Below, in pieces: positions 51,397 through 59,038 of a stretch of 64,000 nt of DNA (position 1 is its first letter; the number at the start of each line of letters is the position of its first letter). The stretch is from positions 62,001 through 126,000 of the forward strand of contig JAFALK010000037.1 in NCBI GenBank assembly GCA_019234295.1, read 5' to 3'. The translations under genes and the position numbers were made by a program. The stretch comes from Roseateles sp. Lineage in GTDB: Bacteria; Pseudomonadota; Gammaproteobacteria; Burkholderiales; Burkholderiaceae_C. The notes below the pieces were generated by a model. That model searched no databases, was not told the origin of the DNA, and was given only the letters and a program-made list of their open reading frames with translations.

Positions 51397-52133
51397 ATCA
51401 CCTCCCCGCCGCTGATGGACAGCGCTTGCCCTGTGATGCTGGCGGCCTCGCGGCTGGCCAGGTGAAGCACTGCGGCAGCCACTTCCGCAGGACGGATCAG
51501 GCGCCCTTGGGGATTCGAGGCCGTCAGCACCGTCAACGCTTCTTCGCGGTTGCGGCCCGTCTTGGCCATGATGGTGTTCAGCGCTTCTTCGACGATGGCG
51601 GTTTGCGTGTAGCCCGGGCACACGGCGTTGACCGTCACGCCCTTGCTTGCCATCTCGATCGCCATGGCGCGCGTCAGCCCGATCACGCCATGCTTGGAAG
51701 CGCAATACGCGGCCACATAGGCATAGCCCTTGAGAGCGGCCGTGCTGGCCACGTTGACGATGCGACCGAAGCCGCGCTCGCCCATGCCGCCTACGACCTC
51801 GCGGCTGCACAGGAAGGTGCCTGTGAGGTTCACCTGCAGCATGCGGTTCCATTGAGCCAGGGACGTGTTCTTGAGCGGCGCCGTCTCGACCACGCCAGCG
51901 TTATTGACGAGGATGTCCACGGCGCCCACCGTAGCGAAGGCCGCGCGCACGCTGGCCTCGTCGGCCACGTCCACGCGCTGTGCCGCAGCCCCCAGCCGTG
52001 CGGCCTCAGCCTGAAGAGGCGCCATGTTCCGGCCCATCAAGGTCACGCGGGCGCCGGCGGCCGCCAGGCCTTCTGCCACCGCCAAGCCAATGCCGCTGCC
52101 ACCGCCCGTGACGACTGCGTGCAATCCCTTCAC
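51393..52133 (-). CDS. Short-chain dehydrogenase/reductase (3-hydroxyacyl-CoA dehydrogenase-like)
   Basis: A 246-residue SDR with TGGGSGIG (9-16), [10 protein letters not shown], catalytic Ser in NVASTAA and YCASKHG, and the GGEVM end. The closest pattern is the 3-hydroxybutyrate/3-hydroxyacyl dehydrogenase branch. GTG start at 52133 overlaps the abmA stop (GTGA). In the operon it would oxidise a hydroxyacyl-CoA or reduce a ring ketone from the AbmA product; which is not known. Confidence 0.9.
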
Positions 52134-54439
52134 AGCTTCTCCTCCTCAGCCTGCGGCTGTGCAGCCAGCATGCGCTGGCGCTCGAATTCGCGTTCCATCT
52201 GCTGCTTACCCGACAGATACTGCCGGGGCCATTCCACGCCGGTGAACCCGATGCGCGCGGCCTCTTGCAGCGTCCAGGCCGGGTTGGCCAGGTGCGGGCG
52301 GGCCACGGCGCACAGATCGGCACGGCCGGCGGCGATGATGCTGTTCACGTGGTCGGCCTCGCTGATCGCGCCAACGGCGATGGTGGCGATGCCTACGCGG
52401 TTGCGGATGCTCTCCGAGAAGGGCGTCTGCCACATGCGGCCGTAGACGGGCTTTTCCTGCTTAGACACCTGGCCTGAGGACACGTCGATCAGGTCGGCGC
52501 CGGCTGCCTTGAAGGCGCGAGCGATCTCCACCGCGTCGACCGGCGTGCTGCCGCCCTCCACCCAGTCGTGCGCTGAGATGCGGACCGACATCGGCAGTTG
52601 CTCGGGCCACACCGCGCGCATTGCGCTCATCACTTCGAGCGGATAGCGCAGGCGGTTCTCGAGCGAGCCACCGTATTCGTCCTCGCGCCGGTTCGTCAAA
52701 GGCGAGATAAAGGACGAGAGCAGGTAGCCATGGGCGCAGTGCAGTTCCAGCCAGTCGAAGCCGGCGCGGGCAGCGCGCTGCGTGGCGGCCACAAAATCGG
52801 CCTTCACCCGCTCCATGTCGGCGCGCGTCATGGCGCGGCTCCAGTCGCTGACGCCATCGAGATATTGCTGGGGCGAGGCCGAGATCAGTGGCCAGCCGCC
52901 CTGGGCCAGCGGCTGGTCGATACCGTCCCAGGCCACGCGGGTCGAACCCTTGGCACCGGCGTGTCCCAGTTGCATCGCCATGCGGGCTGTGCTGTTGGCG
53001 TGGACGAAGTCGACAATGCGCTTCCAGCCGCGCTCCTGTTCCTCGTTCCACAGGCCGGGGCAGCCGGGCGTGATGCGGGCGTCGGCGCTCACGCAGGTCA
53101 TCTCTGCAAAGACCAGGCCAGCGCCGCCGCAGGCCCGGGCGCCCAAGTGCATCAGGTGGAAGTCGGCAGGCACACCGTCGACACAGGAATACTGTGCCAT
53201 CGGCGAGACGACCACCCGGTTCTTGAGCACGACCGAGCGCAACTTGAAGGGCGTGAACATCGGCGGCACGGCCTTTTCCTGCCCCGCCAGCCAGCGCTCG
53301 AAATCCTCGACGTAATGCCGGTCGCGCAGCCGCAGGTTCTCGTGCGAGATCCGCTGCGAGCGCGTCAGCAGCGAATACGCGAACTGCTCGGGCGCGAGCC
53401 GCGCGTGGCGCTCCACGTTTTCGAACCACTCGGTGCTGTTGCGGGCGGCGTTCTGAATGCGCAGTACGTCGATGGAGCGCTCGGCCGCGTACTGCGCCAG
53501 CGCGGCCTTGAGATCGCCCTGGGCACGATCGATGTCACGCGCCAGCGCGATCGCATCCTCCAGCGCCAGCTTGGTTCCCGAGCCGATGGAGAAATGCGCT
53601 GTGTGCGCTGCATCGCCCATCAGCACCACCGGCACGCCATCCTCGCGCCAGTGCACCCACTGCTGGCAGATCACGCGCGGGAAGCGGATCCACTGCGCCG
53701 AGCCGCGCAGATGAGACGCGTTGGACACGAGCTTGTGACCCTGGAGCACGTCGGCGAACAGCCGCTCGCACCAGGCGATACCCTCTTCCTTGTCCATGTC
53801 CGCCAAGCCGGCCTTGCGCCAGACGTCTTCGGGCGCTTCGACGATGAAGGTCGAGGTGTCGGCATCGAAGCGATAGGCATGCGCCTGGAACCAGCCCCAT
53901 TCGGTCTTCTGAAAATCGAAGGTGAAGGCATCGAAGAGTCGGTTTGTGCCCAGCCAGACGAAGCGGCACTGACGCAGGTCCACATCGGGCTGGTAGCTGG
54001 CCGCGTACTTGCTGCGGATGCGGCTGTTGAGGCCGTCTGCGGCGATGACGAGATCGGCCTCCAAGCCTTCGTCGTCCAGCACGTCGCTGTCGAACTGCAG
54101 CTTCACACCCAGCTCACGGCAGCGATTCTGGAGGATGGACAGCAGGCGCATGCGACCGATGCCGCAGAAGCCGTGCCCCCCCGAGGTCAGCGTGCGCCCG
54201 GCAATGCGGACGTCGATGGCGTCCCAGTGGTTGAATGCGTCGAGGATCTGGGCGGCGGTCTGCGGATCGGCCTCTCGCAGGGCGGCCAGAGTCTGGTCGC
54301 TGAACACCACGCCCCAGCCGAAGGTGCTGCCCTCTGCGTTGCGCTCCAGTACCGTCACCTCGTGGGCCGGATCCTGCTTCTTCATCAGCAGCGCGAAATA
54401 CAGGCCCGCGGGGCCGCCGCCAATGCAGGTGATGCGCAT
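52130..54439 (-). CDS. abmA: 2-aminobenzoyl-CoA monooxygenase/reductase
   Basis: A 769-residue flavoprotein fusion. The first ~385 residues form a salicylate-hydroxylase-like FAD monooxygenase: [28 protein letters not shown], and [20 protein letters not shown]. From about residue 395 an old yellow enzyme domain follows: [40 protein letters not shown]. This exact fusion hydroxylates and reduces anthraniloyl-CoA in Azoarcus evansii (abmA). Salicylyl-CoA 5-hydroxylase is a close relative, but the ligase and ridA genes favour aminobenzoyl-CoA. First gene of the operon. Confidence 0.92.
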
Positions 54440-54554: not shown

Positions 54555-55205
54555 ATGAACCTGAATCCGCTTGACATCCTGAACGAAGGCGGCACCGCCA
54601 TCATCACCATCCTGGCCCTGTCGGTGCTGGGCCTGGCCGTCCTGCTCGAACGTGGAGTCCATTGCCGCGTGCAGCGCCTCGCACCGACGGCGCTGCTGGA
54701 TCAGGTGCTGCCGGCCATGCGCTCGCGCGACTGGGCCGGCGCGCGCCAGGCGCTGGAGGCCTCGGAGCCGGGCCGCAAGGAAAGCCTGTCCGCCCCGGTG
54801 CTCGCTTTCTTGATCGATCAGCAGGGCTGGAGCCGCGCCGAGCTCTCGGCCCGGGCGGCGGACTTGGCCGCGCTGGGCCTGCGCCGCCAGCAGCAGCGCG
54901 CCTATCCGCTGGCCGTGGTGGCGACGGTTGCGCCCATCATCGGCCTGCTGGGCACGGTGATCGGCATGATCGAGGCCTTCCATGTGATCGCCTTCTCGGG
55001 CGCACTGGGCGACCCGGCCCTGCTGGCCGGCGGCATCTCCAAGGCTCTGATCAACACCGCCACGGGCCTCAGCGTGGCCCTGCCGGCGCTGGCCGCCCAC
55101 CATTGGTTCAAGCACCGGCTCGCCCAGATCGGCATGACGCTGGAAGAGCAGATCAACGAGGTGCTCGATCAATGCTTCCCGCCACCCGCAGCGCAGCAGC
55201 CATGA
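54555..55205 (+). CDS. MotA/TolQ/ExbB family proton channel protein
   Basis: A 216-residue inner-membrane protein, divergent from the aminobenzoate operon. It has an N-terminal helix (about 14-34), a cytoplasmic part, then two long helices with VATVAPIIGLLGTVIGMIEA and ISKALINTATGLSVALPALA, the ExbB/TolQ signature. ATG 54555 (MNLNPLDILNEGG). It overlaps the ExbD-like gene by four bases. Confidence 0.92.
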   Translation: MNLNPLDILNEGGTAIITILALSVLGLAVLLERGVHCRVQRLAPTALLDQVLPAMRSRDWAGARQALEASEPGRKESLSAPVLAFLIDQQGWSRAELSARAADLAALGLRRQQQRAYPLAVVATVAPIIGLLGTVIGMIEAFHVIAFSGALGDPALLAGGISKALINTATGLSVALPALAAHHWFKHRLAQIGMTLEEQINEVLDQCFPPPAAQQP

Positions 55206-55624
55206 AGATCCGCCTCGAGGACGAGGAGCCGGTCGAGATCGGCCTGATCGCGCTGATCGACTGCATCTTCTTCCTGCTGATGTTCTTCATGGTGGCGACC
55301 TCGTTCAAACAGCAAGATGCCCAGAAGCGCGCCAAGGAGCTGCACGTCACGCTACCCACGGCCGCCGTGAGCTTCGATGCCGCGCAAGCCGGGACTGTGC
55401 CGCTGGTCATCACCATCGACGCACGCGGCAGCTTCGCCGTCGACGGCCAGGGCGTCAGCATCCAGGCTCTGAGAGAACGGCTTCATCGGGAGGCACAGAC
55501 CCAGCCCGGCCGCACCGTGCGGATTGACGGCGATCGCAGTACGCCCTACCAGTACATCGTCCACGTGATCGATCTGTGCGAGTTCGAAGGCCTGCGCCAG
55601 GTGTCGCTGCGCGCGCGGCCATGA
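55202..55624 (+). CDS. ExbD/TolR family protein
   Basis: A 140-residue bitopic protein: ALIDCIFFLLMFFMVATSF holds the proton-path aspartate near residue 20 at the membrane edge, followed by a periplasmic domain ending with QYIVHVIDLCEFEGLRQVSL. It overlaps both neighbours by four bases, so the three-gene unit is translationally coupled. No TonB or TolB gene follows; the third gene is unusual. Confidence 0.92.
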   Translation: MKIRLEDEEPVEIGLIALIDCIFFLLMFFMVATSFKQQDAQKRAKELHVTLPTAAVSFDAAQAGTVPLVITIDARGSFAVDGQGVSIQALRERLHREAQTQPGRTVRIDGDRSTPYQYIVHVIDLCEFEGLRQVSLRARP

Positions 55625-56919
55625 CGCGCATGCGCTTCGGGCAGGATCACGCCGCGCAGGCCGCCCAGGCGGCGAACTGGCCGCGCTGGCTGTGGATGTC
55701 GCTGGCCGTCCACGTGCTGATCCTGCTGGCCTGGTGGATCTGGAAATCGAACCAGCCCACCCTCGAGCCTGGCCAGGTCGAGCGCATCGAGGCCACCCGG
55801 CACAAGGAGGGCCAGGTCCGGATGCAGCGCAAGCTCCAAGCGCTGGAGCAGATGCAGAGCGAGTTGGCCGGCAGCCAGCCGCCGTCATCCGAGGAGCTTG
55901 CAGCGCAGGACGCCGCCCTCAGCGGCGATCCGAAGCTGATGCTTGAGCGAGCCAAGGCGATCGCGGCCCAGATCGACCAACACGACCAGCAGCAGCGCGC
56001 CCAGGAGCTGGCGCGCAAGCAGCGGATACCGGTGGCCAAGGCCCTGGAGCAGGTACGGCGGGCCGATGCAGCCCAGGCGGCCTCGGCGCCTCGCGCGGGC
56101 GGCGACACGAACCGACAGCTCGCCGATCTGGCCGAGCACGCGCGCCACACGCTCGCCGCTCAGCGCCAGCGATCCGGCGAGCCGGGCGGCGCCTCGGGCA
56201 CTTCGGGCAATGGGAACACCGACAGCGTTGCGGGTGGCCGGGGCGCCGGGCGCAACGGATCCGCCGGCAGCGCCGGCCCGGGCTCCTGGAACACGCCACT
56301 GACCCTGGACAACGCCTTTCTCGATCAGCGTGACTACGGCCCCATGATGCCCACACCCTTTGTCGATCCCAACCACCTCGCGCTGGCGAGCGGCCGGACC
56401 CTGGGGCCCGGGGGCATGCTGGCCGACCGGGCTTTCCTCGACAGCTGGTACCTGATTGGCCCCTTCGGCGGCCAGGGCGCTGCCAGCCACGACCGGGTCT
56501 ATCCGCCCGAGCTCGGCGTGGATCTCGATGCGGTTTACGAGGGCAAGAACGGCACGGCCCTGGAGTGGCATTACCTGCCCGGCGCCGCCTACCCGCTCGT
56601 GCCGCCGCCGCGCGCGGAGAACGCCGTCTACTACGCCTACACCGAGATCCGCGTGGACCGGGACACGAACCTTTGGTTCAACGTCGGGTCCGACGACGAC
56701 TCCAAGATGTGGGTCAACGACGATCTCGTCTGGTCCAGCAACCAGGGCGACAAGGCGTGGTACCGCCAACCCTTCTACCGCCTGCGCAAGGAAATCGCGC
56801 AGTACAACCTCGTCGAAGGGCGCGTCCGGGTGCACCTGCACCCGGGCGCCAATCGCGTGCTGTTCAAGCTCTACAACGGCATCGACCTGATGTTCTTTGC
56901 AGTCGTGCTCACGCCCTAA
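55621..56919 (+). CDS. Membrane-anchored protein of an ExbBD-type motor, with PA14-like C-terminal domain
   Basis: A 432-residue protein I do not recognise. It has one membrane helix (about 24-42), a Gln/Ala-rich predicted coiled coil (about 50-180), a Gly/Ser-rich linker (about 180-225), and a C-terminal beta-rich domain (about 275-432). That domain contains WYLIGPFGG, a YPPE-VDLDAVYEGKNG segment and GSDDDSKMWVNDDLVW, similar to PA14-like or galactose-binding-like modules on carbohydrate-active proteins. The topology (helix, extended linker, C-terminal domain) is that of TonB/TolA, but no TonB C-terminal domain is present. Confidence 0.75.
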   Translation: MTRMRFGQDHAAQAAQAANWPRWLWMSLAVHVLILLAWWIWKSNQPTLEPGQVERIEATRHKEGQVRMQRKLQALEQMQSELAGSQPPSSEELAAQDAALSGDPKLMLERAKAIAAQIDQHDQQQRAQELARKQRIPVAKALEQVRRADAAQAASAPRAGGDTNRQLADLAEHARHTLAAQRQRSGEPGGASGTSGNGNTDSVAGGRGAGRNGSAGSAGPGSWNTPLTLDNAFLDQRDYGPMMPTPFVDPNHLALASGRTLGPGGMLADRAFLDSWYLIGPFGGQGAASHDRVYPPELGVDLDAVYEGKNGTALEWHYLPGAAYPLVPPPRAENAVYYAYTEIRVDRDTNLWFNVGSDDDSKMWVNDDLVWSSNQGDKAWYRQPFYRLRKEIAQYNLVEGRVRVHLHPGANRVLFKLYNGIDLMFFAVVLTP

Positions 56920-56934
56920 GCAGCCCTAAGCAGC

Positions 56935-57033
56935 CCGCTCAGGCCGCTCAGGCCGCTCAGGCCGCTCAGGCCGCTCAGGCCGCTCAGGCCGCTCAGGCCG
57001 CTCAGGCCGCTCAGGCCGCTCAGGCCGCTCAGG
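56935..57033. repeat. Array of eleven perfect 9-bp tandem repeats
   Basis: CCGCTCAGG occurs eleven times in a row without a mismatch (99 bases), 15 bases after the preceding gene and reaching into the last five bases of the fusA-like gene on the opposite strand. A 10-base duplication (GCCCTAAGCA, twice) lies just before it. Every unit has a TGA in the fusA frame on the minus strand, so the gene stop is followed by ten further in-frame stops. Confidence 0.97.
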
Positions 57034-59038
57034 CCGTGACTGGCTCGCGCAGCGCGGGCGCGTAGTGATCGAAGCGCATCGAGTACTGCGCCCGACCCGA
57101 GGACAAGGCGCGCAGCGAGCCGATGTAGCCGAACATCGCGGCCAGCGGCACCTCGGCCTGCACGACCGCGCTGGTGCCACGCTGCTCCTGCGCATGGACC
57201 GAGCCCTGGCGCCGGTGCAGGTCGCCGATCACGTCGCCCAGGTATTCCGGCGGCGTGATGACCTCGACGGCCATCACCGGCTCCAGCACCTGCACGCCGC
57301 CCTGAGCGAGCGCCTGCTTGAAGGCATGCGCCGCGGCCAGCTCGAAGGCCATGCTCGAGGAATCGCGCTCATGGAAGGCGCCGTCCAGGAGCACGGCTTC
57401 AAAGTCCACCACCGGATAGCCCTCGGGCCCTGCGGCCTGGGCCGCCCGCCGAATGCCCTGCTCAACCGCCGGAATGAATTCGCGTGGAATCACGCCGCCG
57501 GTGATGCGGTTTTCGAAGCGCAGGCCCTCTCCGCGCGGGAGCGGCGCAAAGCTCAGCAGCACCTCGGCGAACTGGCCGGGGCCACCGCTTTGCTTCTTGT
57601 GCAGATGGTGCACCTGAGTCGCCCGCTGCAAGGTGCTGCGATAGGCCACTTGCGGACGGCCCACACTGAGCTGCAGTCCGGAGCGCTGACGCAGCTTCTC
57701 CAGGCTGACTTCCAGCTGCAATTCGCCCATACCCGACAGGATCGTCTGGCCGGACTCTGCATCTTGCGACAGGCGCAGGCTCGGATCCTCGCGCAGCAAG
57801 GTCTGCAGCCCCTTGGACAGCAGGGGCAGGTCCGTGCGCGCCTTGGCCTCCACCGCGAGATGGATGACTGGCTCGGGCGTCTCGATCGCTTCGAGCGTGA
57901 TCGGCGCGGCCGGGTCGGCGAGCGTGTGGCCGGTCAGCGCATCCTTGAGACCGACCAGGGCCACAATGTCGCCGGCCTGCGCGGACTCGCGCTCCACGCG
58001 CTGGTCGGCATGCATCTCGTAGATCCGGGAGACGCGTTCGGTCTTGCCCGTGGCCGTGTTCAGCACGACCTCGCCGCGGCGCAGGTGGCCGCGGTAGATG
58101 CGGGTGAAGACCAGCGAGCCATGATCGTCAGCGACGAGTTTGAAGGCCAGGGCCGCGAAGGGACCCTCGCCCTGGTGCACTTCTTCGGGGGACGGCAGAT
58201 AGTGCACCACTGCATCCAGCAGCGGCTCGACGCCGCGGTTCTTGAAGGCCGAACCGGCAAGCGCTGGCACCAGCGTCGAGGCGAGCGTGCCCCGGCGCAA
58301 CGCGGCTCGCAGCGCCTCGGGAGCGATCACCTCGCCGTTGAGGTAAGGCCTCAGCACGGCGTCGTCGATCTCGGCGGCAGCCTCGATCAGCCGGGCGCGC
58401 CACAGCTCAGCCAGTGCCGACATGTTCTCGGGCACGGGCTCCACGCGGTAGGGCTGGCTGGCGTCATCGCGGTCCCAGATCAGCGCGTGCTGTTCGATCA
58501 GATCCACGACGCCGCGGAATTCACCCTCTGCGCCGATCGGCAGTTGCACCGGCACGATCTTGGCGCCCAGGCGTTCTTCCATCATGTCCACCACGCGCAG
58601 GAAGTCAGCCCCCACGCGGTCGAGCTTGTTGATGAAGGCAATGCGCGGCACGTGGTACTGGTCGGCCAAACGCCAGTTGGTCTCGCTCTGCGGCTCCACG
58701 CCAGCCACGCCGTCGAAGACGACGATGGCGCCATCGAGCACGCGCAGGGAGCGGCGCACCTCGATGTTGAAGTCGATGTGTCCGGGCGTGTCGATCAGGT
58801 TGATCTGCGTGCCGTGCCAATGCACGGTCGTGGCCGCGCTGTTGATGGTGATGCCGCGGGCGCGTTCCTGCGGATCGAAATCCATCTGGGTGGTGCCCTC
58901 GTGGACTTCGCCCATGCGGTGGCTTTCACCGCTGTAGAACAGGATGCGTTCGGTGGTCGTGGTCTTGCCGGCGTCCACATGGGCGATGACGCCGATATTG
59001 CGCAGCTGGCGCGAGCGGGTGTTTCTATTCGAGTTCAT
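57029..59038 (-). CDS. fusA2: Elongation factor G paralogue
   Basis: A 669-residue translational GTPase. G1 [13 protein letters not shown]2 [12 protein letters not shown]3 DTPGHIDF, G4 NKLD, then EF-G domains II-V with GMGELQLEV and PGSVHAQEQ-like [13 protein letters not shown]. It is about 30 residues shorter than the housekeeping EF-G, and the rpsL-rpsG-fusA-tufA context is absent. It is therefore the second EF-G (FusA2 type), whose role (ribosome recycling or stress) is not clear. Its stop codon lies in the 9-bp repeat array. Confidence 0.93.

Follow-up and report, generated by a model that had tools for sequence, protein, structure and literature searches.

Three adjacent genes in the window (the whole stretch of 64,000 nucleotides analysed here) encode an ExbB-like protein, an ExbD-like protein and a third protein that was read as the energy transducer; together the products look like a compact machine of the TonB/TolA kind that is powered by protons. 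We conclude that the trio forms a dedicated ExbBD-type force transducer whose C-terminal domain defines a separate, so far undescribed class; a search of openly licensed papers, with preprints outside its scope, returned no description of it. The explanation that we favor, with moderate confidence, is a self-contained, proton-driven trans-envelope force transducer whose C-terminal domain, resembling GH2 N-terminal (GH2-N) and PA14 domains, is pulled or released while it holds a ligand, presumably a glycan.

Gene layout and motor subunits

All three genes are located on the plus strand. The exbB-like gene, encoding the proton-channel subunit (216 aa), occupies positions 54555..55205 and is followed by the exbD-like gene (140 aa) at 55202..55624 and by the gene of the third protein (432 aa) at 55621..56919. 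In a Pfam search with the window's proteins the first two were assigned to MotA_ExbB (PF01618, E 3.9e-24; 85.3 bits against a cut-off of 22.9) and ExbD (PF02472, E 2.1e-26; 92.9 bits against a cut-off of 25.4). The ATGA overlaps between exbB and exbD and between exbD and the third gene, from which the earlier note had argued for one complex, are exact, and their coordinates were confirmed from the sequence. The long ORFs on either side of the trio (52130-54439 and 57029-59038) are encoded on the opposite strand and, judged by reading, look unrelated to it. The genome of the window displayed nine MotA_ExbB, nine ExbD and three TonB_C matches above cut-off, the TonB_C matches being located elsewhere in the genome; the genome thus has several such systems, of which the trio is one.

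Alignment with the E. coli proteins indicated that ExbB residues Ser34, Thr148, Thr181 and Pro190 are kept in the window's ExbB as S23, T134, T168 and P177. The codons of Thr134 and Thr168, the equivalents of Thr148 and Thr181, are found at 54954..54956 and 55056..55058, and that of ExbD Asp20, the equivalent of E. coli ExbD Asp25, at 55259..55261 (all plus strand). Among the ExbBs from the related three-gene loci described below (cassette ExbBs), the Thr181 position was Thr in 69 of 69 sequences, the Thr148 position was Thr in 64 of 69 and Met in the other five, and the Pro190 position was Pro in 68 of 69. The Asp motif was matched in 70 of 73 ExbDs; the Asp was visible on reading in two of the remaining three, while the ExbD of L074 is truncated ahead of the Asp position.

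Other positions of ExbB differed from those in E. coli. The Glu176 position was Lys in 58 and the Asn196 position was His in 62 of the 69 cassette ExbBs. The Trp38 position was aliphatic in all 68 cassette rows with a letter there, which counts against our main reading; according to an excerpt of PMC12215075, Trp38 of E. coli ExbB contacts TonB Ser16 and His20. Since the Thr and Pro positions are kept whereas Trp38, Glu176 and Asn196 are replaced, the pore of the cassette ExbBs looks functional and the other positions bear a distinctive signature.

A quick maximum-likelihood tree of 78 ExbB relatives, which is a sample with support values of one kind only (SH-aLRT), placed 44 of the 45 sampled cassette ExbBs in a single clade (SH-aLRT 100). 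This clade spanned Pseudomonadota, Lentisphaerota, Planctomycetota, Verrucomicrobiota, Kiritimatiellota and KSB1, and the 33 other ExbB/TolQ relatives, which came from E. coli, the window's genome and eight carrier genomes, lay outside it. The ExbB of L081 (Armatimonadota) was found outside the cassette clade on a long branch, which counts against the main reading. The tree took 45 of the 69 cassette ExbBs, near-copies having been thinned by hand and L097 being too short. The comparison rows comprised six of the eight other matches from the window's genome and 25 of the 55 other matches of the eight carrier genomes; the latter were those with loci, minus L147, L153 and L155, in whose extracted sequences the pore motif was not seen.

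Membrane helix, arm and C-terminal domain of the third protein

The full-length AlphaFold2 model of the third protein (mean pLDDT 80.5) predicted helices at residues 22-43, 50-82, 90-100, 104-134, 138-154 and 163-184. The first of these is hydrophobic in sequence and is the predicted membrane-spanning helix (55684..55749), and residues 50-184 make up a predicted helical periplasmic arm (55768..56172). Residues 191-234 (56191..56322; pLDDT <50) are a linker predicted to be disordered, with Gly and Ser accounting for 42% of residues 185-234, and the C-terminal domain covers about residues 255-432 (56383..56916); these features, like the genes, are on the plus strand. The transducer layout of helix, helical arm, linker and C-terminal domain proposed in the earlier note was thereby recovered, but its single long coiled coil for the arm was not borne out because AlphaFold2 predicts several helices.

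The membrane helix carries Ser27-X3-His31 (55699..55713, plus strand), the Ser-His half of the SHLS motor-docking motif. Its sequence SLAVH aligned with Ser16/His20 of E. coli TonB and Ser18/His22 of E. coli TolA in an alignment of 14 third proteins, 13 of them hand-picked. SxxxH was present in the most hydrophobic stretch of 67 of 85 third proteins and in 1 of 122 control ORFs, and a relaxed form in 71 of 85 and 18 of 122, respectively; the control ORFs were selected for containing a hydrophobic window and the search covered each of them in full, a treatment different from that of the third proteins. Two of the 87 rows had been dropped for an N-terminus that was too short, some of the 18 SxxxH misses are due to misplaced starts, truncated contigs or split genes, and a misplaced start also accounts for one relaxed match (L071) among the 71. 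His31 was invariant in nine of nine unfiltered rows and likewise in the full-length alignment (43 of 43 rows) after a motif filter that took out one row (L032, whose start is misplaced).

Residues 38 and 42 of the window's third protein are Trp and Lys, and the Leu and second Ser of SHLS are absent, which counts against the main reading; an excerpt of PMC12215075 describes these two positions as less conserved in Ton. In five loci (cluster C19) the transducer appears to be split, and in those that were read (L085, L092 and L096) a separate gene encodes the SxxxH helix and a coil-like stretch, with the domain in a following frame. Docking of the third protein on the motor is well supported by these sequence comparisons.

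The C-terminal domain (residues 256-432) was modeled by AlphaFold2 from 86 rows with a pLDDT of 87.5 and a pTM of 0.85. The 177-residue model consisted mostly of strands, read as a beta-sandwich, together with two short helices. Among solved structures, the best Foldseek matches were LacZ and beta-glucuronidases (E 3e-4 to 1e-3, query TM-scores 0.40-0.50). VIA-align with the predicted model recovered the N-terminal part of C. perfringens beta-glucuronidase (Z 10.9, 130 aligned, rmsd 3.7 A), an exo-chitosanase (Z 10.5) and residues 344-556 of K. marxianus beta-glucosidase (Z 9.8), which we take to be its PA14 region, and the full-length model gave a similar list (best Z 10.3). Matches in a viral structure library included PA14, GLEYA and F5/8 type C proteins. 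The GH2 N-terminal domain is called sugar-binding in Pfam. The predicted fold of the domain is a GH2-N/PA14-like beta-sandwich; a shared fold in itself shows no function.

Sequence searches gave weaker signals. No Pfam family was found above cut-off on the third protein, the best being PA14 at E 0.12 (0.033 with the C-terminal part alone), and on the domain PA14 (PF07691) scored 14.3 bits against a cut-off of 24. PA14 matches at E up to 1 were obtained for nine of the 86 domain rows (best 0.0025). A sequence search of solved structures with the single third protein gave nothing usable, and in the search with the 86-row profile PA14 proteins ranked after a lipocalin (E 0.017), with E values no better than 0.38. 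No GH2 sequence family in Pfam was matched by the window's third protein; in the distant relative L195 the domain region gave a match (E 1.6e-4), under the cut-off, to PF22666 ('Glycosyl hydrolase 2 galactose-binding domain-like'). A ZorA match on the third protein (E 0.31) maps to the helical region and was discarded. The HMM and structure-prediction checks thus agree with the earlier reading of a PA14- or sugar-binding-like domain at the level of the predicted fold, with PA14 itself below the Pfam cut-off. The quoted motif GSDDDSKMWVNDDLV is present at residues 356-370 (56686..56730, plus strand). D358 was kept in 83 and D359 in 85 of the 86 rows of the domain alignment, and the near-invariant polar residues of the domain include E297, E342, D358, D359, K378, E399 and N419.

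A Pfam search of the third protein up to E 10, with filters that drop most matches above 0.1, detected no TonB_C, TolA or vWA family, and NCBIfam gave no TonB_C or TolA match at E up to 10. The identity of the C-terminal domain with that of TonB or TolA, already denied in the earlier note, was rejected on the basis of these searches together with the beta-sandwich model. An ordinary TonB or TolA with a merely divergent C-terminal domain, to which the alignment of the Ser-X3-His motif with both proteins might point, is scarcely credible: it is contradicted by the predicted fold and finds no family match, the genome has its three TonB_C matches elsewhere, and the cassette ExbBs branch apart from the sampled Ton and Tol motors.

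Weak matches to the domain numbered 14, in 12 genomes, and nine of the 14 (seven whole ORFs and two partial frames) were scanned as distant relatives. Three of the nine were glycosidase modules above cut-off (GH2-related, GH4 and GH29) and one was GHL10-like, below cut-off. Five of the nine were without a glycosidase family (two PQQ propellers, one PA14 and two matchless), which counts against the main reading; one of the partial frames had no family and the other was the PA14. On account of the glycosidase families among these relatives, the domain type is loosely tied to carbohydrate chemistry.

Gene linkage, distribution and flanking genes

A scan of genome contigs with the window's third protein alone found no relative. 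The scan with nine domains returned 148 stretches, 100 of them encoding relatives, and the best 80 of these 100 loci were kept. The best 80 of 100 were distributed in seven named phyla (Pseudomonadota, Verrucomicrobiota, Lentisphaerota, Kiritimatiellota, Planctomycetota, Armatimonadota and KSB1) and in some records named only as bacteria. Many of the Pseudomonadota loci among them belonged to Massilia, Duganella and Pelomonas, and one to a Cellvibrio record. Within the window's own family the domain was identified in nine of 399 genomes and six of 141 genera, and the class and phylum samples yielded 1 of 274 and 3 of 398 genomes, respectively, with the window's genome counted each time. The distribution is therefore patchy.

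In 69 of these 80 loci, which were fetched by the domain alone and are the best 80 of 100, exbB and exbD adjoin the domain on the same strand. The gene order was B-D-third in 65 of the 69 complete loci and third-B-D in four. This neighborhood survey shows a three-gene order conserved beyond chance, in keeping with the earlier note. Six of the 11 incomplete loci are cut by a contig end (L037, L079, L091, L094, L106 and L108). L042, L065, L076 and L103 contain neither exbB nor exbD, and L074 has a partial exbD only and no exbB; no contig end explains either case, and both count against the main reading.

The nine query domains adjoin ExbB and ExbD themselves, and therefore domain copies of another habit may have been missed. 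Eight of the 80 loci are query loci, and once these were removed both genes were present in 62 of 72. In eight genomes searched whole, 10 of 10 strong domain copies (E <1e-30) were located within 2.6 kb of an ExbB, eight of them being the loci that had brought the genomes in and two being new. One planctomycete genome contained six strong copies; the locus that brought it in, L103, is the one without adjoining ExbB and ExbD, and three of the other five copies were read, all with ExbB and ExbD adjoining. Among the 64 third genes whose start was placed after exbD, 29 overlap exbD and 24 begin at 0-10 bases from it, counts that lean short because the ATG closest to the stop codon of exbD was taken as the start. 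The trio is ancient as a unit, with motor and domain co-inherited across phyla.

Flanking genes were analyzed by scanning 30 of the 230 listed flanking ORFs, picked by hand. No family occurred in more than two of the 30, which counts against the main reading, and therefore no partner was identified. The families found twice were S41 peptidase (L057, L063) and beta-helix (L085, L100), and TPR families were found in one of the 30. An M16 peptidase cluster recurs in four loci (one member scanned), and a cluster reading like GH2 recurs in three. Shared flanks were seen only among close relatives, for example Massilia species, and L039, L043 and L047. Two ExbD matches were present in L099 among the 80 loci and in the later-fetched stretches L190 and L197. 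The 30 scanned genes included no outer-membrane channel, motility, secretion, TolB or Pal family. An AglRQS-like motor for motility or secretion is accordingly given very little weight, even though PMC12204202 places AglRQS in the same motor superfamily.

A different target for the domain has to be weighed as well. The same motor and transducer could act with a domain that binds an outer-membrane or periplasmic protein, in Tol-Pal-like tethering or remodeling of the envelope and with no sugar involved. The C-terminal domains of TonB and TolA bind their targets by strand addition, as an excerpt of PMC12204202 states, the near-invariant aromatic and polar residues of the domain could form any interface, and the five distant relatives without a glycosidase family would fit. 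However, no partner gene was seen to travel with the trio among the 30 scanned flanking genes, and three of the nine scanned relatives are glycosidase modules. We regard a protein target as rather unlikely.

The trio might instead be an engine of polysaccharide import, in which the domain grips a glycan as it comes in by way of an outer-membrane channel whose gene lies elsewhere, and the motor draws the glycan into the periplasm. The glycosidase-linked relatives of the domain agree with this, as do the presence of the trio in Planctomycetota, Verrucomicrobiota, Lentisphaerota and a Cellvibrio record and a few carbohydrate-related flanking genes of PVC loci (a pectate lyase in L080, a polysaccharide deacetylase in L088 and GH38 in L107, besides the beta-helix genes of L085 and L100). 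Uptake of labeled polysaccharides by Planctomycetes is reported in PMC5520146. However, carbohydrate genes may simply be common in PVC genomes, many carriers are Massilia and Duganella, and the 30 scanned flanking genes held no outer-membrane channel family, and we consider import improbable.

Proposed mechanism and comparison with known systems

In the force transducer that we favor, ExbB and ExbD would form a motor of the Ton/Tol type, whose assembly and stoichiometry, 5:2 in motors of the ExbB/TolQ-ExbD/TolR family, we infer. The membrane helix of the third protein would dock on ExbB through Ser27-His31, and its helical arm and flexible linker would cross the periplasm and present the GH2-N/PA14-like beta-sandwich. 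Proton flow would then pull or release the ligand-holding domain, both the flow and the direction of the force being presumed, and the ligand would probably be a glycan of the cell wall, of the surface or of an imported polysaccharide. That the trio is a distinct old proton-powered machine, a counterpart of Ton and Tol that exerts force directly on a glycan rather than on an outer-membrane protein, is a possibility that we put forward only tentatively.

TonB and TolA are transducers of ExbB/ExbD-type motors with well-studied outer-membrane targets. The trio would represent another transducer class beside TonB, TolA and the vWA transducers added in 2025, distinguished by a separate clade of ExbBs and by the type of its domain, some of whose distant relatives are parts of carbohydrate enzymes. 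Its small size and the invariant residues available for mutation allow the question of whether proton-driven force can act on a glycan to be addressed directly.

The trio shares with ExbB-ExbD-TonB the motor families, the pore Thr, the ExbD Asp, the Ser-His motif and the succession of helix, linker and C-terminal domain, while it differs in the C-terminal domain itself, in its steady gene linkage and in the Trp38, Glu176 and Asn196 positions of ExbB. With TolQ-TolR-TolA it has in common the motor families, the operon linkage and a helical arm of the sort seen in E. coli TolA; in contrast, it shows no TolA family match, no TolB or Pal in the 30 scanned flanks and a separate ExbB clade. GH2 N-terminal and PA14 domains display the same predicted fold, but here a membrane motor is attached instead of a catalytic domain, and the sequence stays below the Pfam cut-offs.

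The nearest system in print is that of the vWA transducers (Williams-Jones et al. 2025, PMC12204202). In the parts of that paper that concern them, motor genes lie beside a protein with an SHLS helix, a linker and a C-terminal domain other than that of TonB or TolA, the occurrence is in Proteobacteria, Planctomycetes and Verrucomicrobia, and the function is given as unknown; in PVC bacteria they are frequently preceded by a TPR gene and two tolR-like genes. The same parts hold that the diversity of such transducer systems is still to be discovered, and they make no mention of the GH2-N/PA14-like domain. The trio resembles the vWA transducers in the motor genes beside the transducer, the membrane helix with a docking motif, the linker, the non-TonB/TolA C-terminal domain and the occurrence in these three groups. 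However, TPR families in one of 30 flanks and a rare double ExbD set it apart from their frequent TPR gene and two tolR-like genes, and the C-terminal domain differs, being a predicted GH2-N/PA14-like beta-sandwich here and a vWA fold there.

Copy number and apparently split transducers

The Pelomonas Root1217 genome carried a complete exbB-exbD-third gene cassette at locus L075 (5859-8537) and a second copy of the third gene, which encodes the putative energy transducer, at L074 (6700-8549). This second copy was adjoined by a partial exbD only, and exbB was not found alongside it. Tandem pairs of third genes were present at some Massilia and Kiritimatiellae loci (L029, L031, L036, L038, L089 and L091). 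At five further loci (L085, L092, L093, L096 and L102), the transducer appeared to be divided between two genes, the first encoding the membrane helix and coil and the second the C-terminal domain. The domain gene opened with a signal-peptide-like stretch in L085, L092, L093 and L102, and the domain region of L096 was spread over two frames.

Surroundings of the cassette

Directly beyond the third gene of the window, the 9-base unit CAGGCCGCT was repeated in tandem (11.8 copies, 56931-57036), and this array extended to the end of a convergent ORF which, by reading, was elongation-factor-G-like. One gene cluster, GH2-like by reading, recurred downstream of the cassette in L073, L078 and L094. 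A second cluster was located upstream in L046, L075, L078 and L086, and its member in L046 was identified as an M16 peptidase.

Relatives of the domain and other ExbB/ExbD systems

Distant relatives of the predicted C-terminal beta-sandwich domain were found in planctomycete and armatimonadete genomes (L190 12958-15264, L194, L195 and L196) as modules of GH29, GHL10-like, GH2-related and GH4 proteins, the GHL10-like assignment scoring below the cut-off.

The window's own genome encoded two more ExbB genes, on contigs C8 and C18 (L005, L006, L123, L126, L128 and L129), each with two ExbD genes nearby. This arrangement resembles in layout the systems of force transducers with a vWA C-terminal domain, as described in PMC12204202.
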